Shown here piece by piece: positions 6,941 to 60,952 of a DNA stretch of 64,000 nucleotides. This stretch comes from Rhodococcus sp. KRD197 (GTDB lineage: Bacteria > Actinomycetota > Actinomycetes > Mycobacteriales > Mycobacteriaceae). The notes beneath the pieces were generated by a model. The model did not search any database. It was not told where the DNA came from and worked only from the letters and a program-made list of their open reading frames with translations. Positions within the stretch are counted from its first letter, which is position 1; every line of letters begins with the position of its first letter. The DNA is taken from assembly GCF_017168235.1 (NCBI RefSeq), contig NZ_JABFAO010000002.1, forward strand, positions 578,488 to 642,487, in the 5' to 3' direction. A program made the position numbers and the translations under genes.

Positions 6941-7558
6941 GTGTACGAAGGTCCTGTTCAGGATCTGATAGACGAACTCGGCAAGATGCCGGGTGTAGGC
7001 CCGAAAAGCGCTCAGCGCATCGCCTTTCACCTCCTGGGCGTAGAACCGCCGGAGGTCGAGCGGCTGATCAAGGCGCTGCAGCGAGTGCGGGACGGCGTCC
7101 AGTTCTGCACCATGTGCGGCACGGTATCGGACAAGGAGCTGTGCCGGATCTGCGCCGATCCGCGCCGCGACCGCAGCATCATCTGCGTCGTGGAAGAACC
7201 CAAGGACGTTCAGGCAGTGGAACGCACGCGCGAGTTCAAGGGCCGCTACCACGTGCTCGGCGGCGCGCTCGATCCGCTGAACGGAGTGGGGCCTGATCAA
7301 CTCCGCATCCGAGAACTGCTGATCCGACTCGGAAACCAGGACGACGGGGTAGATGTCGCGGAGGTCATCATCGCCACCGATCCCAACACCGAGGGTGAAG
7401 CGACCGCCACCTATCTCGTCCGGACGATGCGCGATTTCCCCGGGCTGTCCATCACCCGACTCGCCTCCGGTCTGCCGATGGGCGGCGACCTCGAGTTCGC
7501 CGACGAGCTCACCCTGGGCCGGGCATTGACGGGTCGTAGGCCGCTCCGCGGCATGTGA
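6941..7558 (+). CDS. recR: Recombination mediator protein RecR
   Basis: 205 aa from GTG 6941 ([20 protein letters not shown]). Helix-hairpin-helix at the N-terminus ([15 protein letters not shown]), the zinc finger C-x2-C...C-x2-C spelled [16 protein letters not shown] (about residues 55-70) and a Toprim domain with ICVVEEPKD and [10 protein letters not shown]. It loads RecA with RecF/RecO in gap repair. The last codon and the stop (ATG TGA, 7553-7558) lie inside the left arm of a long intergenic palindrome. Confidence 0.96.
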
Positions 7559-7596
7559 GTGGAAATACATAGCAGGACAAGTATTTCCACTCACAT
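7553..7596. repeat. Long intergenic palindrome, copy B
   Basis: Perfect 16-bp arms ATGTGAGTGGAAATAC (7553-7568) and GTATTTCCACTCACAT (7581-7596) with a 12-nt loop. The left arm supplies the TGA stop of recR. This copy has lost the inner CATAGC part of one arm. It is followed immediately by a separate palindrome containing two DnaA-box sequences. Confidence 0.88.
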
Positions 7597-7625
7597 CCGG
7601 TTATCCACAGGCTGTGGATAACCGG
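7597..7625. promoter_or_regulatory. Palindrome of two opposed DnaA-box sequences
   Basis: Perfect 14-bp arms, CCGGTTATCCACAG (7597-7610) and CTGTGGATAACCGG (7612-7625), with one base between. Each arm contains the consensus TTATCCACA (7601-7609, and inverted 7613-7621). It lies between recR and the AbiEi-like gene, 47 bp before that gene's start. It may be a DnaA-binding site, an operator or a terminator stem; there is no T-tract. Confidence 0.6.
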
Positions 7626-7672: not shown

Positions 7673-8695
7673 ATGGACACCAGACCGAGCGGCCGCTTGC
7701 AGGAATATCTCGACGAGCAATGCGGCATCCTGACGACCCGGCAGCTCTACGGTCTGGGCGAGAACCGTGAGTCGATCAGACACGCGGTCGAGACCGGCCA
7801 ATGGCTGCGAGTCTTCCGGGGAGTCTTCGCCGTCACGAACGGCCCGCTGACGCGCGAGATGCAGTTGTCGGCGGCTCTCCTCTACGCGGGGCCGAGAGCA
7901 CTGTTGAGCCATGACACCGCAGCCGAGGCATGGGGGATCTCACGACCGACGGAGGGGCCGGTACACGTGACGGTCCCGTACGGCTGCTCCGCGATCAGTC
8001 AGCCGCCGACGTTGCGCCACGCAGATCGAAGATTCACAGCCACTGCGCACGAGGTCATCCATCCGGGCGTCGAGGTGCACAGGTCGCGAGCCATGGCACA
8101 CATCGGAGCCGACACGAACCCGCTGCGAACTGGCAAACCCGATACCGTCCTGGACCTCGCGGTGGCCCAACCGACAGCCAGAGAGGCGATGATCTGCATG
8201 GTGTCGGCGATGGCCTCGGGTGCTGTGTCGGTGGACCTCATGCGCCGCAAACTCGAGCTTCGTCGGCCTCGGCGCTACCGGCGAGCGCTGTTCGACACTG
8301 TCGTCCTGCTCGGCGAAGGGGTGCATTCCGTCCTCGAACACAGGTATGTCCTCGACGTCGAACAGGCGCACGGACTTCCGACGGCGACGCGTCAGGCGCC
8401 CCATCATGTCGATGGCCGCGTTCTGTTCGAGGATGTGCTCTACGAGCAGTTCGGGCTCATCGTCAGGCTCGACGGCCAGGCCTTCCACAGCGCGAAGCAG
8501 CGAAGATTCCGAGACCGCAGGCGGGACAACTCAGCCGAGTTGCGCAACCTTCCGCGCCTGGCCTACGGCTGGGACGACGTGACGAAGGATCCCTGCGCGG
8601 TCTACGGGGAGGTCCGGGCAGTGCTCGTGCGGGAGGGATGGAGTGATGTGTCTTTTCCCTGCAGGCGCTGCGCGCATGTGAGTGAAAGTACATAG
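7673..8695 (+). CDS. AbiEi/DUF559-type protein with winged-helix and nuclease-like (VSR-fold) domains
   Basis: 340 aa. The N-terminus (LDEQCGILTTRQLYGLG, then WLRVFRGVFAVT) matches the AbiEi antitoxin-type winged helix. The C-terminus matches the DUF559/very-short-patch-repair-like segment (LDGQAFHS, then DRRRDNSAEL, YGWDDVTKDPCAV). The family normally shows E-x-D-G; here it is VRLDG, with Arg in place of Glu, so nuclease activity is doubtful. There is no adjacent AbiEii-type toxin gene. The last seven residues (AHVSEST) and stop come from an intergenic palindrome. Function unknown; solitary copies are common in actinobacteria. Confidence 0.75.
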   Translation: MDTRPSGRLQEYLDEQCGILTTRQLYGLGENRESIRHAVETGQWLRVFRGVFAVTNGPLTREMQLSAALLYAGPRALLSHDTAAEAWGISRPTEGPVHVTVPYGCSAISQPPTLRHADRRFTATAHEVIHPGVEVHRSRAMAHIGADTNPLRTGKPDTVLDLAVAQPTAREAMICMVSAMASGAVSVDLMRRKLELRRPRRYRRALFDTVVLLGEGVHSVLEHRYVLDVEQAHGLPTATRQAPHHVDGRVLFEDVLYEQFGLIVRLDGQAFHSAKQRRFRDRRRDNSAELRNLPRLAYGWDDVTKDPCAVYGEVRAVLVREGWSDVSFPCRRCAHVSEST

Positions 8696-8720
8696 CGGGC
8701 TATGTACTTCCACTCACATG
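8675..8720. repeat. Long intergenic palindrome, copy C
   Basis: Arms 8675-8696 and 8699-8720, 22 bp with one mismatch and a GG spacer, in the GAAAGTAC subtype. It provides the TAG stop of the left gene (8693-8695) and the TGA stop of gatD (8714-8716). Flanks are GGCGCTGCGCGC and a GGCGGAGCCGC mini-hairpin, oriented as copy A. Confidence 0.9.
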
Positions 8721-9424
8721 TGGCGGAGCCGCTCCCTCCGGAGCTGGGTTACCTCCGGCAGATCAAGGGGCGCCAACCGGGTGCCCAGGGCCTTCTCCAG
8801 CAGGTAGTCCGCCAGTTCCGGATTCCGCGCGAGCACGGGGCCGTGCATGTACGTGCCGATCACCGACCCCTGCACGACGCCCTCGCGTCCGTCGCCGACG
8901 CCGTTGCCCACACCGGAGGTGACCTTCGCCAGCGGAGCTGCGTCGAGGCCGAGAGTGGTTCCACCGCGGTGGTTCTCGAACCCGGTGAGCTTTGCGCTCA
9001 GACCGTCGAGGAAAGGTTCGCTCACGACCTCCCCGATGGATCGCTTCTCCTGCGGTGCGGTGGTGACATCGAACATCGAGATGCCGTCCACGCGTTCACC
9101 CGCGGAGGTCTCGTACCAGTGCCCGAGTACCTGGATCGCCGCGCAGATCGCGAGAACCGGAACGCCCCGCTCCGCCGCTTTCTGCAGCCCGGGATACTTC
9201 GTCAGGTGGCGGGTGGCCAGGCGTTGCGCTGAATCCTCGGCTCCGCCCAGGGTGTAGACGTCGCACGATTCCGGAACCGGATCGTTGAGCGTGATGTGCA
9301 CGACTTCGGCGTCGATATCGCGCATGCGCAACCGCTGGCGCAGGATCAGGGCGTTGCCGTTGTCCCCGTAGGTACCCATGACGTCGGGTAGCACGAGACC
9401 GATGCGGACAGTGGACTCAGACAT
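8714..9424 (-). CDS. gatD: Lipid II isoglutaminyl synthase, glutamine amidotransferase subunit GatD
   Basis: 236 aa CobB/CobQ-like glutaminase. The nucleophile Cys is in VLAICAAIQVLGHWYE (about residues 91-106) and the His in GTYMHGPVLARNPELAD. It releases ammonia from glutamine for MurT, which amidates D-iso-glutamate of lipid II in the cytoplasm. It overlaps murT by 8 nt, the normal arrangement (Rv3713-Rv3712 in M. tuberculosis). The final Met codon and stop are inside the intergenic palindrome. Confidence 0.92.
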   Translation of the reverse strand: MSESTVRIGLVLPDVMGTYGDNGNALILRQRLRMRDIDAEVVHITLNDPVPESCDVYTLGGAEDSAQRLATRHLTKYPGLQKAAERGVPVLAICAAIQVLGHWYETSAGERVDGISMFDVTTAPQEKRSIGEVVSEPFLDGLSAKLTGFENHRGGTTLGLDAAPLAKVTSGVGNGVGDGREGVVQGSVIGTYMHGPVLARNPELADYLLEKALGTRLAPLDLPEVTQLRRERLRHM

Positions 9425-15504: not shown

Positions 15505-15559
15505 AACGCCGAGTGTACTACCGCACACACCCTCCGCACCCGTGGGTTGACCGAACCGG

Positions 15560-18983: not shown

Positions 18984-21276
<2,293 letters not shown>

Positions 21277-21286
21277 GCGCCTTCGG

Positions 21287-21336
21287 CGCATGTGAGTGGA
21301 AATACATAGCCCGCTATGTATTTCCACTCACATGCG
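21287..21336. repeat. Long intergenic palindrome, copy D (perfect)
   Basis: Perfect 24-bp arms 21287-21310 and 21313-21336, spacer CC, with GGCGCCTTCGGCGC on the left and GCGCGGAGCGCC on the right. It lies between convergent asd and the ABC ATPase gene; the latter's stop (TGA, 21328-21330) is within the right arm. Confidence 0.93.
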
Positions 21337-22404
21337 CGGAGCGCCTTCGCCCGACCCGTCGAAGACGTGCGCATGTGCCTCGTCGAACCGCACGGCCACC
21401 ACATCGCCCTTCTGGGGTGGGTCACGCCAATCCGCACGCGCGACGATGGTCTGCGTCCGACCGTTGATGTCGGCGCGACCGAAGACGAAGGCCTCCGAAC
21501 CCAGCTCCTCGACCACATCGATCTCGAGCTTCAATCCCGACGAGACGATCTCGACGTGTTCCGGCCGAATGCCGAACATCACCTCGGAGCCACTGCAGCG
21601 GGCGAGGACATCGCGCGGAATCGGAACGACCTGGTCGCCGATCCGCACTCCGCCGTCGGTGATCGGGGCACTGAACAGGTTCATCGACGGGGATCCCATG
21701 AACCCGGCGACGAAGACGTTCGCGGGAGTTCGGTACAGCTCGCGCGGTGAGGCGCACTGCTGCAGCGTTCCGCCTTTGAGTACCGCGACGCGGTCGCCCA
21801 TGGTCATCGCCTCCACCTGATCGTGCGTGACGTACACCGTGGTGGTGGCCAGCCTGCGCTGCAGCTGCGCGATCTGCGTGCGGGTCTGAACTCGGAGTTT
21901 CGCGTCCAGATTCGACAGCGGCTCGTCCATCAGAAAGACCTGCGGCTGACGGACGATGGCCCGGCCCATGGCCACGCGCTGGCGTTGCCCTCCCGAGAGC
22001 GCCTTCGGCTTCCGATCGAGGTAGTCCTCGAGGTCCAGGAGCTTCGCGGCTTCGAGGACGCGTGTTCGGATCTCCTCTTTGCCGGCTTTGGCGAGCTTGA
22101 GCGCGAAGCCCATGTTCTCGGCGACGCTCATGTGCGGGTAGAGCGCGTAGTTCTGGAACACCATCGCGATGTCGCGGTCCTTGGGTTCGGAATGCGTGAC
22201 GTCCGAGCCGCCGATGAGAATGCGACCGCTGTCGACCTCCTCGAGGCCGGCGAGCATGCGCAGAGATGTGGACTTGCCGCAGCCCGACGGGCCGACGAGA
22301 ACGAGAAATTCGCCGTCGGCGATCTCGAGGTCGAGGGCGTTGACCGCGGGCACCTCAGAGCCCGGGAAAAGCCTGGTGGCGCGGTCGAACGTGATAGATG
22401 CCAT
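21328..22404 (-). CDS. ugpC: UgpC/MsmK-family carbohydrate ABC transporter ATP-binding protein
   Basis: 358 aa from ATG 22404. Walker [16 protein letters not shown]-loop [13 protein letters not shown], signature [15 protein letters not shown], Walker [14 protein letters not shown], and a C-terminal TOBE/MalK-like regulatory domain. No permease or binding-protein gene lies nearby, so it may be a shared ATPase serving several sugar importers, as MsiK does in streptomycetes. The symbol denotes the family, not a proven glycerol-phosphate role. The last Met codon and stop are within an intergenic palindrome. Confidence 0.86.
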
Positions 22405-22500
22405 GGGTATGTGTGATCCCTCCACCGGCAGGAACGTGCCGGACGATCCGAGTGACGGGTGTCGACGGGTGTCGACGAGGCAACATAGTATGGCGGCGGG

Positions 22501-32536: not shown

Positions 32537-33856
32537 ATGAACCATGCGGCACGGCACCAGGCCGAGGACAGTCCGGACGCACTCGGCATGTGGCGGCTGT
32601 GCTGGGTGGCAGTGGTCTGTGGAGTGGTCATCGGCTTTGTCGGTGGGGCATTTCGATGGTGTCTTCGGCAAGCGGACGAGCGCAGGCTCGAACTCCTCGA
32701 GTGGGTGCATTCGGCCCCGGCCCCCGCGCTGTTGATTCCCGTTGCGGTCACCGCTGGTGGAGCGGGATTGGCGGCCTTGATCGTCAGATGGACGCCGCTG
32801 GCGGCAGGGAGCGGAATTCAACACGTGGAGGCTGTCGCCAGGGGAGAGTCGCAGGCGCCGCCGCGCAGTGTGCTCCCGGCGAAGTTCATCGGCGGACTGC
32901 TCTCGATCGGTTCGGGCCTGGTGCTGGGTCGCGAGGGGCCGACAGTGCACATGGGAGCTGCCATCGGGGCCGAAGCAGGTAGGCGAGCGCGGCTCAGCAG
33001 CGCCGACTCCGCATCGATGCAGTCCTCGGTTGCGGGTGCCGGGCTCGCCGTGGCGTTCAACGCCCCCATCGGGGGAGCGGTGTTCGTCTTCGAGGAGGTA
33101 ACGAAGTCCTTTCGTGCGCGGACCGTGCTGCCCACCCTTATCGCGGTAGCAGTCGGAGTCGGTTGTTCGCGAATGATCAACGGAGACAGGCCCGATTTCT
33201 TTGCAGGGGGCGTCGACGCGCCGTCGATTGCGCTACTGCCGTACTTCGTCGTGTTCGGGCTGACGGCAGGAGTCCTCGGCGTTCTGTACAGCAAGATGAT
33301 TCTCGGCGCGGTCGACGTCGCGGAGAGGTTCGACAACGTTTCTCCCACGGTCCGCGCGGTGCTCATCGGCGCGCTCGTAGGGGCCCTGATGACGTTGGAT
33401 CAGGGTTACGCCGGCGGCGGAGACGCGGTGGTGCAGTCGCTGATCGGGGGCGGCAATCCGGTTGTGCCCGTCGTCGCCGGGTTTCTCGTCATCCGTTTGA
33501 TCACCGGGCCTCTGTCCTACGCCTCGGCCACTCCCGGAGGGCTGTTCGCGCCGCTGCTTGCGCTCGGCGCCCTGTGGGGTGCCCTCGTCGCGGGGGTCGG
33601 CGACGCTGCCCTGCCGGACATGAACACGCCATCGTTGCCTGCGATGGTCGTCGTCGGAATGGCCGCGCTCTTCGGTGCGGTTGTGCGAGCGCCGATTACC
33701 GGGATCGTGATAGTCGTCGAAATGACCGCAGTCACTTCGGTGACAGTCCCCATGCTCGCCGCTACCGCGGCAGCCGTCCTCGTCGCACACCTGGCAGGGT
33801 CGCCGCCGATTTACGACAGCCTGCGTCACCGAATGCTCGGCGACGGTCGAAGATGA
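32537..33856 (+). CDS. ClC-family chloride channel / proton-chloride antiporter
   Basis: 439 aa from ATG 32537 (CCAGGAG upstream). Many transmembrane helices with the three ClC selectivity segments: AAGSGIQHVEAV (near 94), VLGREGPTVHMGAAIG with the gating Glu, and ATPGGLFAPLLALGA. A second Glu in IGGAVFVFEEVTKSF stands where antiporters have the internal proton-transfer Glu, so proton-coupled exchange is the better guess. No C-terminal CBS domains. It shares a bidirectional terminator with the opposing tRNA gene. Confidence 0.9.
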   Translation: MNHAARHQAEDSPDALGMWRLCWVAVVCGVVIGFVGGAFRWCLRQADERRLELLEWVHSAPAPALLIPVAVTAGGAGLAALIVRWTPLAAGSGIQHVEAVARGESQAPPRSVLPAKFIGGLLSIGSGLVLGREGPTVHMGAAIGAEAGRRARLSSADSASMQSSVAGAGLAVAFNAPIGGAVFVFEEVTKSFRARTVLPTLIAVAVGVGCSRMINGDRPDFFAGGVDAPSIALLPYFVVFGLTAGVLGVLYSKMILGAVDVAERFDNVSPTVRAVLIGALVGALMTLDQGYAGGGDAVVQSLIGGGNPVVPVVAGFLVIRLITGPLSYASATPGGLFAPLLALGALWGALVAGVGDAALPDMNTPSLPAMVVVGMAALFGAVVRAPITGIVIVVEMTAVTSVTVPMLAATAAAVLVAHLAGSPPIYDSLRHRMLGDGRR

Positions 33857-33909: not shown

Positions 33910-33983
<74 letters not shown>

Positions 33984-35086: not shown

Positions 35087-35563
35087 ATGTCAGAACTCAA
35101 GCCCGAATTGAAGACCAGGCTCCGATCCGACCTCACCGCGGCGATGAAGGCCAAGGACAAGCTGCGTTTGGCCACATTGCGCATGCTTCTCGCCGCGATC
35201 CAGACCGAGGAGGTATCCGGCAAGGAGGCGCACGAACTCACCGACGAGCAGGTGCTGAAGGTGCTCGCCAAGGAGTCGAAGAAACGCGGTGAATCGGCCG
35301 AGATCTACACGCAGAACGGACGCGGTGAGCTCGCGGCCACCGAGCACGCGGAAGCCCGGATCATCGACGAGTATCTCCCGACGCCGCTGACGGACGCCGA
35401 GCTCGCCGACGTCGCGGACACCGCCATCGCTCAGGTGGCCGAGGAGCTCGGTGAGCGCCCGGGAATGAAGCAGATGGGGCTGGTCATGAAGGCCGCCTCG
35501 GCGTTGGCCGCGGGCAAGGCCGACGGCTCTCGTGTGTCCAAGGCGGTCAAGGACCGCCTGTAG
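35087..35563 (+). CDS. GatB/YqeY domain-containing protein
   Basis: 158 aa from ATG 35087. All-helical YqeY domain: LKTRLRSDLTAAMKAKDKLR, ESAEIYTQNGRGELA, IIDEYLPTPLTDAEL and the C-terminal KADGSRVSKAVKDRL. Related to the tail of tRNA amidotransferase GatB; the role of the stand-alone form is unclear, though tRNA binding is proposed. No ribosome-binding site is visible, so it may be leaderless. A palindrome follows the stop. Confidence 0.9.
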   Translation: MSELKPELKTRLRSDLTAAMKAKDKLRLATLRMLLAAIQTEEVSGKEAHELTDEQVLKVLAKESKKRGESAEIYTQNGRGELAATEHAEARIIDEYLPTPLTDAELADVADTAIAQVAEELGERPGMKQMGLVMKAASALAAGKADGSRVSKAVKDRL

Positions 35564-35572
35564 GCGCTGACG

Positions 35573-35656
35573 CGCATGTGCGCGGAAATACACTGTGCAC
35601 CTGGGTCACTCCGCAGGCTGCGCTCCTGACCCTCCATGTATTTCCGCGCACATGCG
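35573..35656. repeat. Long intergenic palindrome, copy E (long-loop variant)
   Basis: Perfect 20-bp arms 35573-35592 and 35637-35656 with a 44-nt loop. The core reads GTGCGCGGAAATACA instead of GTGAGTGGAAATACA, and both arms carry the change. It lies between convergent yqeY-type gene and ponA2. Confidence 0.88.
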
Positions 35657-35666
35657 GCGAAGCTGC

Positions 35667-38039
35667 CTACCGGGGCACGGTCAGCCCGGGAATCGCCGGT
35701 ATCTGAATCGGCGGCAGCTCCGGGAGCTCGATGTCGGGCCGTGCCGGGTTGGCCGGTGCGGGAGGAGCCTCCCGCACCGATCCGTCGCTGACGTAGATCG
35801 TGATGGTGGATCCAGGGATCGCCGAGCCGGAGGGCGAGATCCCTGTGACGGTTCCCCGTGAGGACGAACTGGCCGTCATCACGGCTGTCACCTGGAAGCC
35901 TGCACCCTGCAGCGTCGAAGTTGCCGAGCTCTGGGTCTGACCGGTGACGTCGGGGACCTGCCCGTTGGCCGAACCACGGACGTACTTCTGATCCACCGGC
36001 GGCAACTCGACCGAACCGAAGTTGTTCGCGACGGGGTCAATGGCCTGGAACCAGGTACGAGCGGGCTCGTTACCGCCGAAGAGGTTGCCCGAGCCGCACG
36101 GTCGTAGTGGGAACGAGCAGATCTCACCGGGCGTCGGTGAGTCGCCGTAGGTGTACACCGCGGCGGCATAGCGATTGGTGAAGCCGAGGAAGCCGGAGGA
36201 CATGTGCGACTCGGTGGTACCGGTCTTGCCGCCCATCGGCAGTGTCCAGCCGACCGAACCGGCAGCCGACGCCGAGGTGCCGCCCGCTTGATCGTCCTTG
36301 CTCATTGCGTTCATGAGGGTGTTGGCCAGGCCGGGCTCGACGACCTGCTCGCAGGGCTGCTGCGTGAGGGGCACGGGCTGGCCTTCGCGGTCGTAGACCG
36401 AATCGATGGGGGTGGGTGGGCACCACTTGCCGCTCGAGGCCAGCGTCGCAGCCACGTTCGACAGCTCCAGCGGGTTCACCCATGTCGGCCCGAGGGTGTA
36501 GGAACCGAGGTTCTGCGACTTCTGGAAGTCCGCCATGGACTGATCGTCGAAGCCCGAGGTGCCGGGGTTGGCGTAGGACCGCAAGCCCAGCCGTACGGAC
36601 ATGTCGACCACAGGGCTGACCCCGACCGACTCGATGAGCTTGACGAATGCCGTGTTCGGGGATTGGGCGAGGGCATCGGTGATGGACAGCGACGCCGGGT
36701 AGTTGCCGGCATTCTCGACGCAGTAGGTGTTGGCAGGGCACCCCGGTGCGCCACCGTCACCGAGACCCTTCACCTCGGCGCGACGCGGCACCTGCAGCGT
36801 CGCGCTGGTACCGAGGCCGCGCTCCATCGCTGCAGCCGTGGTGAAGACCTTGAAGATCGAGCCGGCACCGTGGCCGACGAGTGTGTAGGGCTGCGGCTGC
36901 ACCGTCTCGTTGGTGTCGGCGTCGAGGCCGTACGTACGGCTGCTGCCCATGGCGAGAATCCGGTGCGAGTCCTGGCCCGGAGCGATGACGTTCATGACGG
37001 TCGCGACGCCGTTGAGGGTGGGGCTGGAATTCCCCACGAGCGCGGCCTTGGTCGAATCCTGGACCGCCGGGTCGAGGGTGGTGCGGATCAGGTAGCCGCC
37101 CTTGTCGATCTGTTCCCTGCTGATGCCGGCGTCGGCCAGGTACTGCAGTGCGTAGTCGCAGAAGAAGCCGCGGTCCCCTGCGGCGATGCAGCCGCGGGGG
37201 AGTGTCTGAGGAACAGGGAGCACGCCGAGCGGCTCGGTCTTGGCCTGCCTGAACTCGTCGGCTCGTTCCGGAATGTTCTCGATCATCGTGTCCAGCACGA
37301 CGTTGCGTCGTTCGGTGACGCCCTGCTCGTTGGTGTACGGGTTGAGCGCCGAGCTCGACTGCACCATGCCCGCGAGCATCGCCGACTGCTTTGCGTCGAG
37401 GTCGCTGGCGTCGATGCCGAAGTAGGTCTGTGCGGCGTCCTGGATGCCGAACGAGGCGTTGCCGAACGGTACGAGGTTCAGGTACCGGGTGAGGATCTCG
37501 TCCTTGGTCAGTTCCTTGTCCAGCGTCAGCGCCATCCGGATCTCGCGGATCTTGCGAGCGGGAGTCGTCTCGATGGCGGCACGTCGCTCGGCGTCGGTCT
37601 TGGCGACGACGAGTAGCTGGTAATTCTTGACGTACTGCTGGTCGAGGGTGGACGCACCTTGCTCGACCTGACCGCTCGTGGTGTTGGTGAGGAAGGCGCG
37701 CAGCGTGCCCTGCCAGTCGACGCCCTGGTGCTCGGCGAATCGCCGGTCCTCGATGGAGACGATCGCCAGTTTCATCTGATTGGAGATCTGATCGCTCGGG
37801 ACTTCGAATCGGCGTTGCTCGTACAACCAGGCGATGGGATTGCCCGCCGAGTCGACCATCGTGGACACGGCAGGCACCGTGCCCTCGACGAGTTCGGCCG
37901 ACACATTGTCGACGGTGTCCGCCGCGCGGTTGGAGGCGTAGCCGAACCCGCCTGCCAACGGAAACATCACTCCGGCCAACAGCGCACCCGCAAGTGCGGA
38001 ACATCCGGCGAGCTTCGCCACGGTTTTTCCAACTGACAC
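35667..38039 (-). CDS. ponA2: Bifunctional class A penicillin-binding protein with C-terminal PASTA domain
   Basis: 790 aa. N-terminal transmembrane segment (about 12-35), then a glycosyltransferase domain with VSIEDRRFAEHQGVDW and GASTLDQQYVKNYQ. The transpeptidase domain carries GSIFKVFT (Ser-x-x-Lys), QSPNTAF (SxN) and GGKTGTTES. One PASTA domain (GQVPDVTGQTQSSATSTLQ) and a Pro-rich tail close the protein. It polymerises and crosslinks peptidoglycan outside the membrane. PonA2-type enzymes are dispensable in growth but important in non-growing or stressed cells. Divergent from whiB4, as in mycobacteria. Confidence 0.95.
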   Translation of the reverse strand: MSVGKTVAKLAGCSALAGALLAGVMFPLAGGFGYASNRAADTVDNVSAELVEGTVPAVSTMVDSAGNPIAWLYEQRRFEVPSDQISNQMKLAIVSIEDRRFAEHQGVDWQGTLRAFLTNTTSGQVEQGASTLDQQYVKNYQLLVVAKTDAERRAAIETTPARKIREIRMALTLDKELTKDEILTRYLNLVPFGNASFGIQDAAQTYFGIDASDLDAKQSAMLAGMVQSSSALNPYTNEQGVTERRNVVLDTMIENIPERADEFRQAKTEPLGVLPVPQTLPRGCIAAGDRGFFCDYALQYLADAGISREQIDKGGYLIRTTLDPAVQDSTKAALVGNSSPTLNGVATVMNVIAPGQDSHRILAMGSSRTYGLDADTNETVQPQPYTLVGHGAGSIFKVFTTAAAMERGLGTSATLQVPRRAEVKGLGDGGAPGCPANTYCVENAGNYPASLSITDALAQSPNTAFVKLIESVGVSPVVDMSVRLGLRSYANPGTSGFDDQSMADFQKSQNLGSYTLGPTWVNPLELSNVAATLASSGKWCPPTPIDSVYDREGQPVPLTQQPCEQVVEPGLANTLMNAMSKDDQAGGTSASAAGSVGWTLPMGGKTGTTESHMSSGFLGFTNRYAAAVYTYGDSPTPGEICSFPLRPCGSGNLFGGNEPARTWFQAIDPVANNFGSVELPPVDQKYVRGSANGQVPDVTGQTQSSATSTLQGAGFQVTAVMTASSSSRGTVTGISPSGSAIPGSTITIYVSDGSVREAPPAPANPARPDIELPELPPIQIPAIPGLTVPR

Positions 38040-48044: not shown

Positions 48045-49231
48045 CGGGCTCCACCTGGGTGGACATCATCGTCATCGGTGTCGCCCTCCTCGCGGCCTCG
48101 TCCGGATGGCGGCAGGGTGCGGTGGCGTCGGCGATGGCGTTTCTGGGTGTGGTACTCGGTGCGGTCGCCGGAATTCTCATCGCGCCGCACGTCCTCGACT
48201 ACGTCGACGGCACGCGACTGCGGGTGATCGTGGGCATCTCGGTGATCATCGCGCTCGTCATCATCGGCGAGGTATCGGGGATGGTGCTCGGGCGGGCGCT
48301 GCGCAGCAGTATGCACTCCCCGGGGGCCAGATCCGTCGACAGCGTCATCGGCGCAGGGCTGCAGGGCGTCGCGGTGCTCGCGGCCGCGTGGCTCCTCGCG
48401 ATCCCGCTGACATCGTCCTCACAGCCCGAGTTGGCCGGCGCGGTTCGCGGGTCGCAGGTGCTGAGCAAGGTCGACGAGGTCGCACCGCAGTGGCTCCGCG
48501 AGATACCCAAGGAATTCTCCGCGTTGCTCGATACATCCGGGCTGCCGGATGTCATCGGGCCGTTCGGGCAGACCCCGGTGGCCGATGTCGCACCACCCGA
48601 CCCGGTACTGCAGGCCAGCTCTGTTGTCGGGCAGCTGCAGCAGAGTGTCCTCAAGATCAGCGGCGTCGCCTCGAGCTGTCAGAAGGCGCTCGAAGGATCC
48701 GGTTTCGTCGTCGCCCCCGAACTCGTGATGACCAATGCCCACGTCGTCGCCGGGACCGATGGCGTCACCGTCGACTCCGTCGGCTCGGTGTTCGACGCCG
48801 AGGTCGTGCTCTTCGACTCGGAGGAGGACGTGGCGTTGCTGCGAGTCCCCGGACTACGGGCCCCGGTACTGAATTTCCGCGCTGACCCGGCAGCACCGGG
48901 CGAGGGCGCGATCGTGCTGGGCTACCCGGGCGGCGGACCGTACACCGCAAGCTCGGCGCGGGTCCGTGAGACGCTCAACCTCAGCGGCCCGGACATCTAC
49001 CAGACCGGCACCGTGCAGCGGGAGGTCTACACCGTCCGCGGCACCGTCCGGCAGGGCAACTCGGGAGGGCCACTGGTTGCCGCGGACGGGCAGGTACTCG
49101 GACTGGTCTTCGGCGCTGCCGTCGACGACCCGGACACGGGCTTCGTCCTCACCGCCTCCGAGATCGCCGACGAGCTCGAGCGCGGAATCTCCAGCCCGGT
49201 GGCTGTCGGAACCGGCGCCTGCATCCTGTAA
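48041..49231 (+). CDS. marP: Membrane serine protease MarP
   Basis: 396 aa. Four N-terminal transmembrane helices of CvpA type (about residues 6-125), then a chymotrypsin-fold protease with catalytic His (MTNAHVVAG), Asp (SEEDVALLRV) and Ser (RQGNSGGPLVA). Cys in ASSCQKALEGSG and the C-terminal GTGACIL match the two that form the regulatory disulfide in the M. tuberculosis enzyme (Rv3671c), which is needed for acid and oxidative stress survival. It is the last gene of the nth run; a palindrome follows 11 bp after the stop. Confidence 0.93.
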   Translation: MTGSTWVDIIVIGVALLAASSGWRQGAVASAMAFLGVVLGAVAGILIAPHVLDYVDGTRLRVIVGISVIIALVIIGEVSGMVLGRALRSSMHSPGARSVDSVIGAGLQGVAVLAAAWLLAIPLTSSSQPELAGAVRGSQVLSKVDEVAPQWLREIPKEFSALLDTSGLPDVIGPFGQTPVADVAPPDPVLQASSVVGQLQQSVLKISGVASSCQKALEGSGFVVAPELVMTNAHVVAGTDGVTVDSVGSVFDAEVVLFDSEEDVALLRVPGLRAPVLNFRADPAAPGEGAIVLGYPGGGPYTASSARVRETLNLSGPDIYQTGTVQREVYTVRGTVRQGNSGGPLVAADGQVLGLVFGAAVDDPDTGFVLTASEIADELERGISSPVAVGTGACIL

Positions 49232-49242
49232 GGCGGCTCCGC

Positions 49243-49292
49243 CGCATGTGAGTGAAAGTACATAGTGGGCTATGTACTTTCACTCACATGCG
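49243..49292. repeat. Long intergenic palindrome, copy F
   Basis: Perfect 23-bp arms 49243-49265 and 49270-49292 with spacer TGGG, GAAAGTAC subtype in both arms. Flanks GGCGGCTCCGCCGC (left) and GCGCGAAGCGCC (right) are those of copy A in reverse order, so this copy is inverted relative to A. It supplies the stop codon of ephE (49280-49282). Confidence 0.93.
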
Positions 49293-50785: not shown

Positions 50786-50868
50786 CGATTCTCGTCCGGG
50801 CTTCGCAATAAGACTAGTGCCGACCCGAGTCGCAGTGCTTCAGGGAGGCGGATTCGACGCCTGTGCGC

Positions 50869-50907
50869 GGAAATACGACAGTGACCTCGGGTCACTGTCG
50901 TATTTCC
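50869..50907. repeat. Long intergenic palindrome, copy G (divergent variant)
   Basis: Perfect 18-bp stem, GGAAATACGACAGTGACC (50869-50886) and its complement (50890-50907), loop TCG. TGTGCGCGGAAATAC on the left is shared with copy E, but the inner half of the stem is different. It lies between the acs 3' end and the start of the holin-type gene. Confidence 0.75.
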
Positions 50908-50919
50908 AAGCACGTGCCG

Positions 50920-52863
50920 CTAGCGGCCCTTCTTGATCGACTCGAACACCTTGGGATCGACGAGGGTGGAGACGTCGCCGAGCTCGCGGCCCTCGGCAAC
51001 ATCACGCAGCAACCGTCGCATGATCTTGCCCGAGCGGGTCTTCGGCAGCTCGGGCACGATCGAGATCTCGCGCGGCTTCGCGATCGGTGAGATCTCTGTC
51101 GACACCTGAGCCTTGAGCTCGGCAATCAACGCGTCACCGGTGTTCTCGACACCGGCGCGCAGGATCACGAATGCCACGATGCCCTGCCCGGTGGTGTCGT
51201 CCGCGGCGCCGACGACAGCCGCTTCGGCGACACCGTGGTGGGTGACCAGAGCGGACTCGACCTCGGAGGTGGAGATGCGGTGGCCGGAAACGTTCATGAC
51301 GTCGTCGACGCGGCCGAGCACCCACAGTGCGCCGTCCTCGTCGTACTTGGCGCCGTCGCCGGCGAAGTACCAGCCCTCTTCGGCGTAGCGGGACCAGTAG
51401 GTGTCGCGGTAGCGGTCCATGTCGCCCCAGATGCCGCGCAGCATCGACGGCCACGGCTCGTCCAGGACGAGGTACCCGTTGCCGCCATTGCCCAGCGGCC
51501 TCGCCTCGTCGTCGACGATCTTGGCCGAGATACCCGGCAGCGGGGTCATGGCCGATCCCGGCTTGGTGGCGGTGACGCCGGGGAGCGGGGAGATCATGAT
51601 CGAACCGGTCTCGGTCTGCCACCATGTGTCGACGATGGGGGCGGTTCCGCCGCCGACGACATCACGGAACCAACGCCAGGCCTCGGGGTTGATCGGCTCG
51701 CCGACGCTGCCGAGCAGACGGACCGAGGACAGGTCGTGTGCGTCGGGAATCTCCCTGCCCCACTTCATGAACGTGCGCACCAGGGTGGGGGAGGTGTAGT
51801 AGATCGAGACCTTGTACTTCTCGACGATGTTCCAATGACGGTGCTCGTCAGGGGAATTGGGGGTCCCCTCGTAGACGACCTGGGTGGCGCGGTTGGAGAG
51901 CGGGCCGTACACGATGTACGAATGCCCGGTGACCCAACCGATGTCGGCGGTGCACCAGTAGACATCCTTGCCGGGCTTGTGGTCGAAGACGTTGTGGTGG
52001 GTGTAGGAGGTCTGTGTCAAGTATCCGCCGGAGGTGTGAATGATGCCCTTGGGCTTACCGGTGGTGCCTGAGGTGTAAAGGATGAACAGGGGGTGCTCGG
52101 CGTCGAACGCTTGCGCCTCGTGCTCCTTCGATGCCTGCGCGACGGTGTCGTGCCACCACAGGTCGCGGCCCTCGGTCCAGGAGACCTCGGAGTCGGTGCG
52201 CTTGACCACCAGCACGTGTTCGATCGAACCGGCCCCGTCCACGGCCTGGTCGACGGTGTCCTTGATGGGCGCGGCCTTGCCGCGGCGCCACTGGCCGTCG
52301 GTGGTGATGACGAGTTTGGCTTCGGCGTCGTCGACGCGTGAGCGCAGCGCCGTGGCCGAGAAACCGGCGAAGACCACCGAATGCGTCAGCCCGAGGCGTG
52401 CGCACGCGAGGATGGAGACGATGGCCTCGGGGATCATCGGCATGTAGATCGCGACGCGGTCACCGGGCACGAGCCCGAGGTCGGTGAGGGTGTTGGCGGC
52501 CTGGCTCACTTCGGCGAGCAGGTCGGAGTAGGTGACGTCGCGGCTGTCGCCGGGCTCGCCCTCCCATGCGATGGCGACCTGGTCGCCGTAGCCGTCCAGG
52601 ACGTGGCGGTCCACGCAGTTGTAGGCGACGTTGAGCTTGCCGTCCGCGAACCACTTGGCGACGGGTGCGTCGGACCAGTCGAGTACCTCGGTGAACGGAG
52701 TGTGCCAGTGGAGTCGGCGCGCCTGCTTGGCCCAGAATGCCAGTCGATCCTGCTCCGCCTCGGCGTAGAGATCTGAGGTTGCGTTGGCCTGGGCGGCGAA
52801 CTCCGCCGTGGGCGGGTAGGAATCTGCCGCAGTCTCCGGTGCTCCGGATGTACTGGTCGTCAT
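50920..52863 (-). CDS. acs: Acetyl-coenzyme A synthetase
   Basis: 647 aa, full length. ANL-superfamily motifs: the P-loop LFILYTSGTTGKPKGIIHTS, DTWWQTETGSIMISPLPG, WYFAGDGAKYDEDG, GRVDDVMNVSGHRISTSEVE and the C-terminal PKTRSGKIMRRLLRD with the Lys that is controlled by acetylation in the family. It makes acetyl-CoA from acetate through acetyl-AMP. Two tandem Crp-type sites lie about 117-148 bp upstream. Corresponds to Rv3667. Confidence 0.97.
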   Translation of the reverse strand: MTTSTSGAPETAADSYPPTAEFAAQANATSDLYAEAEQDRLAFWAKQARRLHWHTPFTEVLDWSDAPVAKWFADGKLNVAYNCVDRHVLDGYGDQVAIAWEGEPGDSRDVTYSDLLAEVSQAANTLTDLGLVPGDRVAIYMPMIPEAIVSILACARLGLTHSVVFAGFSATALRSRVDDAEAKLVITTDGQWRRGKAAPIKDTVDQAVDGAGSIEHVLVVKRTDSEVSWTEGRDLWWHDTVAQASKEHEAQAFDAEHPLFILYTSGTTGKPKGIIHTSGGYLTQTSYTHHNVFDHKPGKDVYWCTADIGWVTGHSYIVYGPLSNRATQVVYEGTPNSPDEHRHWNIVEKYKVSIYYTSPTLVRTFMKWGREIPDAHDLSSVRLLGSVGEPINPEAWRWFRDVVGGGTAPIVDTWWQTETGSIMISPLPGVTATKPGSAMTPLPGISAKIVDDEARPLGNGGNGYLVLDEPWPSMLRGIWGDMDRYRDTYWSRYAEEGWYFAGDGAKYDEDGALWVLGRVDDVMNVSGHRISTSEVESALVTHHGVAEAAVVGAADDTTGQGIVAFVILRAGVENTGDALIAELKAQVSTEISPIAKPREISIVPELPKTRSGKIMRRLLRDVAEGRELGDVSTLVDPKVFESIKKGR

Positions 52864-54983: not shown

Positions 54984-55025
54984 CCGGTGGGTGGAAACCG
55001 GATCGACCCGGCTTCCACCCACCGG
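54984..55025 (+). terminator. Strong stem-loop between dppA and dppB
   Basis: Perfect 13-bp arms CCGGTGGGTGGAA (54984-54996) and TTCCACCCACCGG (55013-55025), starting 11 bp after the dppA stop. GTTTT follows shortly after. Likely a partial terminator or mRNA 3'-end stabiliser that raises dppA expression relative to dppBCD. Confidence 0.72.
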
Positions 55026-59520: not shown

Positions 59521-59536
59521 AGGGCGGATGCACACC

Positions 59537-59848
59537 AAAAGGGCGGCGCCGCCGAGGTGAGTCGACTTCGCCGCCCGTTAGCACGGACGATCGGGATACC
59601 AAGCGTGCAAATTGGGCTGTGGCGATACATTGATCGCGAGGCCTCGGCGTGGGTTCGGTGGAGTAGGAGGTCATCCCTGCAACCGGTGCAGGGTTCTTGC
59701 TGCTACTTCCCGAATCTCGCAGGCCCACAGCGCTTCTGCCCTGTCAGCGGCGCGCTCCGCGTGGGATGCCTGATGTCCGTGCTGGGAATTGCGGTCGGGA
59801 GTGCGAACCTTCTCTTCTGGTTCGAACTTGGCCTTCCGTTCTTCCGTA
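59537..59848 (-). ncRNA. Probable Ms1 (MTS2823)-type RNA polymerase-binding small RNA
   Basis: Gap between the HAD gene and the Fic-like gene, where M. tuberculosis has MTS2823 (Rv3661/Rv3662c gap), same strand as the HAD gene. On the minus strand: -35 TTGATG (59882-59877), 17 bp, -10 TAGAAA (59859-59854), predicted start near 59848. It ends in a terminator of GGGCGGCG paired with CGCCGCCC then TTTT (to 59537). The length of about 310 nt fits Ms1 (about 300 nt). An internal stem CCCTGCA/TGCAGGG spans 59675-59693. Boundaries are predicted. No protein-like frame occupies the gap. Confidence 0.62.
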
Positions 59849-60856: not shown

Positions 60857-60952
60857 AGTCCGACTAGCTCGGACATGTTCAGCCCGACCCCCCGGGGCTG
60901 AACTAGACGACCCTCGCCTCCTCCCCCCCCTGGCGAGGGTCGTCCTCTTTTT
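60857..60952 (+). ncRNA. 6C RNA (B11-type actinobacterial small RNA)
   Basis: Three stems in about 96 nt: GTCCGA/TCGGAC (60858-60874); GTTCAGCCC/GGGCTGAAC (60877-60903) with a loop holding six C; ACGACCCTCGCC/GGCGAGGGTCGT (60907-60943) with a loop holding eight C, followed by CCTCTTTTT. TTGCAA (60820-60825) and TAGTAT (60845-60850) form the promoter. Two C6+ loops define the 6C RNA family, and the place between the Rv3661-like HAD gene and ssd is that of M. tuberculosis B11. The C-rich loops are thought to pair with G-rich ribosome-binding sites. Confidence 0.9.

Follow-up and report, generated by a model that had tools for sequence, protein, structure and literature searches.

The repeats Efa-1 (Efar) and YPAL have a role as two-way terminators. 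Both are stem-loop repeats dispersed between genes, as described in parts of PMC2267715. In the uptake-signal terminators of Neisseria and the Pasteurellaceae, a repeated sequence set in inverted pairs forms the terminator hairpins at gene ends (passages of PMC1852404). According to the relevant sections of PMC3116915, PMC3733652 and PMC8049555, REP/BIME and REPIN elements are short palindromic tagged units whose inverted doublets, often heterodimers, form hairpins; they occur in tens to hundreds of extragenic copies, many near gene 3' ends, with 69-235 REPINs in one strain set (PMC8049555). Actinobacteria are not among the phyla listed in PMC3733652, and a table in PMC12306157 names three Actinomycetota, no Rhodococcus among them. 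Finally, sections of PMC8269248 describe, for the GC-rich actinobacterium Streptomyces clavuligerus, transcript ends with a stable stem and no U tract, some of them bidirectional, and explain such structured ends as I-shaped terminators or as trimmed Rho-terminated RNA.

The element described here was found in a 64-kb stretch of Rhodococcus sp. KRD197 DNA (the window, meaning the whole stretch analysed). The earlier note on this DNA knew of no description of it, and our search of the open-licence PMC literature likewise found no account. At the copies, Rfam returned only a sub-threshold match to MIR7486 (21269-21349, 34.6 versus 67 bits).

Seven palindromes in the window

Inverted repeats were present at all seven places given in the earlier note (1516-1565, 7553-7596, 8675-8720, 21287-21336, 35573-35656, 49243-49292 and 50869-50907), their arms measuring 16 to 28 nt under different ways of counting mismatches. 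When the window was searched for the half-arm CATGTGNGYGRAARTAC with up to 3 substitutions, 14 of the 15 matches were both arms of these seven palindromes, and the remaining one was a stray at 15531 with 3 mismatches. A stricter de novo palindrome scan (arm score >=15) returned 6 palindromes in the window versus 0, 0 and 0 in three third-order Markov shuffles; the palindrome at 35573 was missed because its loop exceeds the loop limit of the scan. The copies with their flanking parts, and the RNA features placed in the window by Rfam, are as follows.

1505-1579, no strand assigned: copy 1, between convergent genes; core 1519-1562; left mini-hairpin starts within the TAG stop 1505-1507, right mini-hairpin extends to the TAA stop 1577-1579 of the facing gene
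7537-7596, no strand assigned: copy 2, codirectional, downstream of a RecR-like gene (6941-7558) whose TGA lies within the core (ATGTGA); left mini-hairpin 7537-7552, core 7553-7596 with a 12-nt loop, no right mini-hairpin
8663-8733, no strand assigned: copy 3, convergent; both gene ends within the core (TAG in CATAGC, TGA in ATGTGA)
21274-21347, no strand assigned: copy 4, convergent; semialdehyde dehydrogenase stop TAG 21274-21276; the facing ABC transporter ATPase gene (minus strand) ends within the core
35561-35669, no strand assigned: copy 5, convergent, between a YqeY-like gene and a penicillin-binding protein gene; core interrupted by a 44-nt apex insert (35593-35636) carrying GGGTCACTCCGCAGGCTGCGCTCCTGACCC; a further hairpin lies within this loop
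49229-49303, no strand assigned: copy 6, convergent; stop TAA 49229-49231; the facing gene ends within the core
50860-50916, no strand assigned: copy 7, a degenerate copy adjoining the 3' end of gene 50920-52863 (minus strand); of the arm, the outer part GTGCGCGGAAATAC alone is retained, and the inner stem differs
22410-22467, minus strand: msiK RNA (Rfam)
33910-33983, minus strand: tRNA (Rfam)
59531-59847, minus strand: Ms1-like RNA (Rfam, below gathering score)
60876-60948, plus strand: 6C RNA (Rfam)

By the calls of a codon-usage gene caller, which are not a curated annotation, five palindromes lie between convergent genes (1516, 8675, 21287, 35573 and 49243), and the other two (7553 and 50869) follow a codirectional gene, which agrees with the earlier claim of five convergent copies and at least one adjoining gene 3' end for every copy. 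Neighbouring genes include those for RecR, semialdehyde dehydrogenase, cyclopropane synthetase, penicillin-binding protein and an AbiEi-like regulator (Pfam). Five of the 12 convergent junctions in the window carry a copy. The claim that other gene ends lack such a structure held for six of the 12, which have no repeat scoring above 7, but not for the junction at 33856, which has an A/T-flanked hairpin.

Other inverted repeats were noted in passing. Adjoining copy 2, at 7597-7625, stand two inverted DnaA-box-like sites (CCGGTTATCCACAGGCTGTGGATAACCGG); the genome holds one perfect and one 2-mismatch site of this kind, and a similar site occurs in relatives G047, G044 and G041, in some with a T run behind it. 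The palindrome TGACTACGCATGTTGTCAG...CTGACAACATGCGTAGTCA lies between divergent genes in four relatives (L173:14615-14660 and stretches of G004, G039 and G047), with a weaker likeness at 531-594 of the window; it looks like an operator. The hairpin CGAGCAGGGCGGTAGGT..ACCTACCGCCCTGCTCG is almost unchanged in five relatives (L154:8065-8103, L158:16362-16400, L170:17319-17358, G004 and G039), and an inverted repeat CCGGTGGGTGGAAACCGGATC/GACCCGGCTTCCACCCACCGG at 54984-55025 of the window has a similar counterpart in G017.

A dispersed family of facing half-units at gene 3' ends

A search of the whole genome (5.56 Mb) with the 19-nt core arm and up to 3 mismatches gave 146 matches, 75 forward and 71 reverse, and the reversed core pattern, used as a control, gave none in either orientation. 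Exact copies of the 19-mer numbered 11 among the matches listed. The covariance model R1, built on 62 copies (49 from this genome and 13 from G003 and G010), matched at least 75 places in the genome. At E 0.01 it matched 31 of the 37 genomes of the genus, seven of the 37 giving 0 or 1 matches; with stricter filters, 121 genomes sampled across the family yielded 8 with a match, 4 of them in the organism's own genus. The degenerate core without mismatches was confined to 3 of 31 genomes (this one, G003 and G010), all in one genus of 13. When named genomes were scanned for the complete palindrome, it appeared in four stretches, all from Rhodococcoides kyotonense, of which the organism of the window is a relative.

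The usual core consists of two 21-nt arms, ATGTGNGYGRAARTACATAGC, flanking 2 to 4 nt, and some copies pair one usual arm with an arm ending in ATACGTGTCCC. Most arms are flanked on their outer side by a mini-hairpin whose GC stem has 4 or 5 bp, for example GCGCTTCGCGC or GCGGCTTCGCCGC. Most copies are composed of two REP-like halves facing each other, each with an AG tag (5'-NAG, usually TAG), a GC mini-hairpin and a 21-nt arm, about 75 nt overall. Dispersal over at least 75 places and this build of mostly heterodimeric tagged halves bear out the description of the element as dispersed and REP-like.

The flanks and surroundings were studied in 73 copies, 67 from among the genome matches listed and 6 from the window (copy 7 was left out), a set that favours well-matching copies because it was drawn from the matches listed. 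A typed mini-hairpin was present on 121 of the 146 sides, and 22 copies had none on one or both sides. The 51 copies typed on both sides comprised 38 with one 4-bp and one 5-bp stem, 9 with two long and 4 with two short stems; random pairing would give 25.5 mixed pairs (p 0.0004). The earlier idea that the mini-hairpins give each copy a direction is correct in part; the short and long types are each found on either side of copies. The AG preceded the mini-hairpin on 83 of the 102 typed sides that face a gene end and also on 11 of the 19 that face none (p 3e-9 versus 1 in 16), from which we conclude that the tag is part of the element; the base preceding TAG is variable across copies.

Pairing holds in 90.3% of the cells of the 62-copy alignment, and 13 of its 23 pairs have changed on both sides; among 500 shuffles, the covariation score was reached by 0 and the number of both-side pairs by 5. 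Within a genome the primary sequence is conserved beyond the needs of a hairpin. At L043:1992-2189 the arms stand about 156 nt apart, and ARAGORN found no tRNA in the insert. A second repeat, of hairpin type GGTCGCTCCGCAGGCTCCGCTCCTGGCC, occupies the apex of some palindromes (window 35593-35636, L066:7453-7529, L074:1939-2015 and stretches of G004 and G039), and elsewhere a related form of it recurs as a tandem unit of 33 bp. Mini-hairpins standing alone at gene stops, with no long repeat, numbered 0 to 6 per genome stretch, with mostly unrelated sequences.

Gene orientation around the copies, a check proposed in the earlier note, was biased. Of the 73 copies, convergent genes flank 48 and divergent genes 2; another 22 follow a codirectional gene, 1 stands at a contig edge, and none was found inside a gene. 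Against a background of 1033 neighbour pairs in 15 relatives, with 203 convergent (20%) and 203 divergent, convergent placement was enriched (48 of 72 classed copies, p 6e-18) and divergent placement depleted (2 of 72, p 4e-5). Palindromes found de novo in the 15 relatives and the window (n=86) included 48 convergent, 29 codirectional and 5 divergent cases; 3 more fell inside called genes and 1 at an edge. The stop codon lay between -20 and +16 nt from the core for 111 of the 118 gene 3' ends adjoining copies, and for 26 it lay inside the core; frequent stops were the TAG opening the mini-hairpin, the TGA in ATGTGA and the TAG in CATAGC. TAG was the stop at 69 of the 118 ends. Among window genes not next to a copy, after two cut at an edge had been dropped, it was the stop in 16 of 47 (p 0.006), and in relatives it closes 318 of 1036 called genes.

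Orthologous junctions and sequence families in relatives

Relatives often carried long palindromes with other cores at the same junctions, and clades had high-copy families of their own. The two genes at junction 21276 (copy 4) are together in 25 of 36 relatives and apart in 11; 29 loci were fetched, of which 4 without both genes were left out. An inverted repeat scoring at least 10, in each case above 30 shuffles of its own sequence, was present in 23 of the 25, and the remaining two (L088 and L099) have a longer-loop inverted repeat, judged by eye. These sequences form several families with no evident likeness between them. Family C, represented at this junction in 14 relatives, has 95% pairing cells and both-side changes in 8 of 20 pairs; its covariation score was reached by 0 of 500 shuffles and its number of pair types by 46 of 500. 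Template switching is another possible source of such paired changes when the palindrome is one of DNA. In the clade of G037, G042, G038, G001 and G045 the hairpin at this junction belongs to no named high-copy family, and these genomes have 24-27 model R1 rows elsewhere.

Judged by eye, the position was also kept and the core differed at junctions 7558, 8695 and 35563, often with the flanking mini-hairpins retained. At junction 8695 (copy 3) the cores are of type A in G047 and G044, type B in G041, G017 and G006 and type D in G016, several of them imperfect, and the mini-hairpins around the exchanged cores are similar among relatives (both by eye). At junction 35563 (copy 5), 8 of 10 relatives score at least 10; the repeat of G017 is imperfect and G016 has none. 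At junction 49231 (copy 6) a long palindrome was seen by eye in 2 of the 25 evaluable relatives, after 4 of the 29 fetched loci had been left out, 3 because they were not joined within 500 bases and 1 because its alignment was unreliable; the G041 site TAGGCGCGTAGCGCCTA is possibly a deletion scar.

Each family recurs many times within its own hosts. Family B had 170 matches in G006, 178 in G018, 79 in G041 and 0 in the genome of the window, and B-rich G006 and G018 held 6 and 4 rows of the family-A model R1. Family C matched 59 times in G007, 39 in G017, 39 in G009, 38 in G043 and 25 in G011, with 1 to 8 matches in other genomes, and family D 47 times in G016 and once in each of three other genomes. 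A candidate link between families A and B, seen by eye, is the G047 core GTGCGTGGTTATACGTCC. Several junction hairpins in G045, G042 and G038 look locus-specific.

G004 and G039 share 94.8% identity over a stretch of 99 kb. One family-A element differs between them (41 bp) among the gaps of at least 12 that were listed, and its site shows a possible 2-bp GG repeat in a single filled/empty pair that fits insertion and deletion equally. The two genomes also differ by an 84-bp insert with an unrelated palindrome and by a 36-bp insert at the junction of copy 1 that is an imperfect hairpin; in G039, the apex of a palindrome shared with G004 holds a second GGTCGCTCCGCAGGCTCCGCTCCTGGCC-type repeat, as in copy 5. 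Other listed gaps of this size are tandem repeats or unrelated. By this comparison of sequences, present-day mobility looks slow, and we infer the spread of the element from its copy number. The Y1/RAYT transposase domain PF01797 was absent from the genome of the window, and among the 37 genomes of the genus a single one had it; as a control, the same search was run on 14 known genomes and detected it in 5, E. coli included. No transposase lay between or beside copies in a Pfam sample of 18 neighbour proteins, all of them enzymes, transporters, cell-envelope or regulatory proteins. Of the label REP/MITE-like, the first half is supported; the MITE part, with its implied transposition, is hypothetical. 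This genome has no Y1 transposase, no clear target-site duplication was seen, and G004 and G039 differ at one family-A element among the gaps listed.

Proposed function, rival readings and known systems

The sense-strand RNA of the copies folds with a mean of -47 kcal/mol (range -24 to -70) at 112 of the 118 gene ends, those of copies with the 44-nt core, for which Ts were also counted; six strands of three copies gave -49 to -58 kcal/mol with z-scores of -8.9 to -12.6. A U tract was sought behind the core, and 71 of the 112 ends had no T in the next 10 nt, with no T run longer than 4 in 40 nt. The copies thus have the GC hairpin at the gene 3' end but lack the U tract of a classical intrinsic terminator, and in their stable stem without a U tract they have the form of an I-shaped, or U-lacking, terminator. 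We also compared A·C and G·U mismatches in the outer 17 pairs. On the sense strand of the 22 codirectional copies A·C (16) exceeded G·U (6; p 0.05), and the 45 convergent copies had 22 of each. The A·C excess goes against selection on the sense RNA; DNA-level or neutral processes suit it better.

The palindrome probably marks transcript ends in both directions. We consider it rather probable that the copies are compound two-way 3'-end hairpins without a U tract, kept at some junctions and homogenised within each genome. The position of the copies, their two-way symmetry and the retention of the stem through sequence change suggest a 3'-end function, be it termination or protection, in both directions. 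The two-way gene end proposed in the earlier note fits the position (48 of 72 convergent) and the long palindromes kept at some orthologous junctions. In a typical copy two REP-like half-units stand face to face at a stop codon, and the element either contains the stop or directly adjoins it, for one gene or for both. In the mechanism that we propose, transcription of either gene would yield an RNA that folds into a very stable stem-loop directly after the stop, and this stem-loop would set the transcript 3' end in both directions. Because there is no U tract, a tail-less (I-shaped) hairpin may bring about release, or Rho may do so and an exonuclease then trim the RNA to the stem; we infer ends of these kinds by analogy with Streptomyces, which has many structured U-lacking ends, as reported in sections of PMC8269248. 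Selection would keep a hairpin at some junctions, and a putative copying or conversion process would replace and homogenise its sequence in each genome, giving rise to clade-specific families. With low confidence, we favour such a process behind the within-genome likeness of the arms, because hairpins kept for their fold alone would drift apart from one locus to the next, as several junction hairpins of G045, G042 and G038 seemingly have. A hairpin is not needed everywhere: a long palindrome at 49231 occurs in 2 of 25 relatives, G016 has none at 35563, and most copy-free convergent junctions of the window are without a strong hairpin.

Selfish REPIN- or MITE-like elements without a host function, bearing their own stop codons, might produce much of the same picture, as they would survive mainly between convergent genes and behind stops, where insertion is least harmful. 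The many near-identical copies (146 core matches) agree with this, as do the AG tag on 11 of 19 typed sides facing no gene end (p 3e-9), a heterodimer bias (38 of 51) like that of the REP dimers described in PMC3733652, the palindrome at junction 49231 in only 2 of 25 evaluable relatives and the excess of A·C over G·U on the sense strand. Such a reading is nevertheless unlikely in our view, given that junction 21276 has long palindromes in all 25 relatives with the genes together (two by eye) despite complete sequence change, that the hairpin there in the clade of G037, G042, G038, G001 and G045 lies outside any named high-copy family, that this genome has no Y1 transposase and that G004 and G039, two species 94.8% identical, differ so little. 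A site acting at the DNA level, for instance for a nucleoid, replication or uptake protein, and merely tolerating gene ends would explain why within-genome conservation exceeds the requirement of a hairpin and why the families vary from species to species in the manner of uptake-sequence dialects. We regard this as very improbable: the position is tied to stop codons, unrelated cores replace one another at one junction, and single arms are not scattered, 14 of the 15 half-arm matches in the window being paired in palindromes, which also led us to reject uptake signals.

That these are ordinary terminators arisen independently, with no shared descent, finds a parallel in the locus-specific-looking junction hairpins of G045, G042 and G038. 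For the genome of the window it is refuted by the 146 core matches within 3 mismatches, 11 of them exact 19-mers among the matches listed, versus 0 for the reversed pattern, and overall it is scarcely credible. A further proposal is possible, if rather doubtful: a REPIN-like population without a RAYT would have taken over many two-way transcript ends in an actinobacterial genus and split into clade dialects, its cores being exchanged in place inside similar mini-hairpins. In-place exchange was seen at a handful of junctions and is implied at many more; if true, the takeover needs some machinery for copying or conversion, as yet undescribed, that can recognise palindromes where genes end. Terminators are usually seen as evolving locus by locus, and here near-identical palindromes stand at many ends of one genome, with other sequences at the junctions of relatives. 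One genus therefore makes two questions testable: what homogenises short repeats in the apparent absence of a RAYT, and whether GC-rich bacteria have recruited palindromic repeats as two-way terminators.

Compared with the known systems, the element resembles the ends of Streptomyces clavuligerus in form; the sections of PMC8269248 consulted describe no dispersed sequence family there. Uptake signals are about 9-11 nt long and generally present in at least 1000 copies, many outside terminators, according to passages of PMC1852404, in contrast to the paired 21-nt arms found here. Efa-1 and YPAL, compared by description only, have models of 163 and 168 nt in PMC2267715, versus about 75 nt here. 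With REPINs the element shares its high copy number, its extragenic dispersal and the inverted doublet of two units in one hairpin. We do not file it as a REPIN because two defining features, a GTAG or CGTC tag and a RAYT, were tested and are absent: the tag is AG, usually TAG, and PF01797 is missing from this genome, which has no Y1/RAYT gene. It differs from REPINs further in that the arms of both units pair over more than 20 bp and relatives carry other cores at the same junctions.
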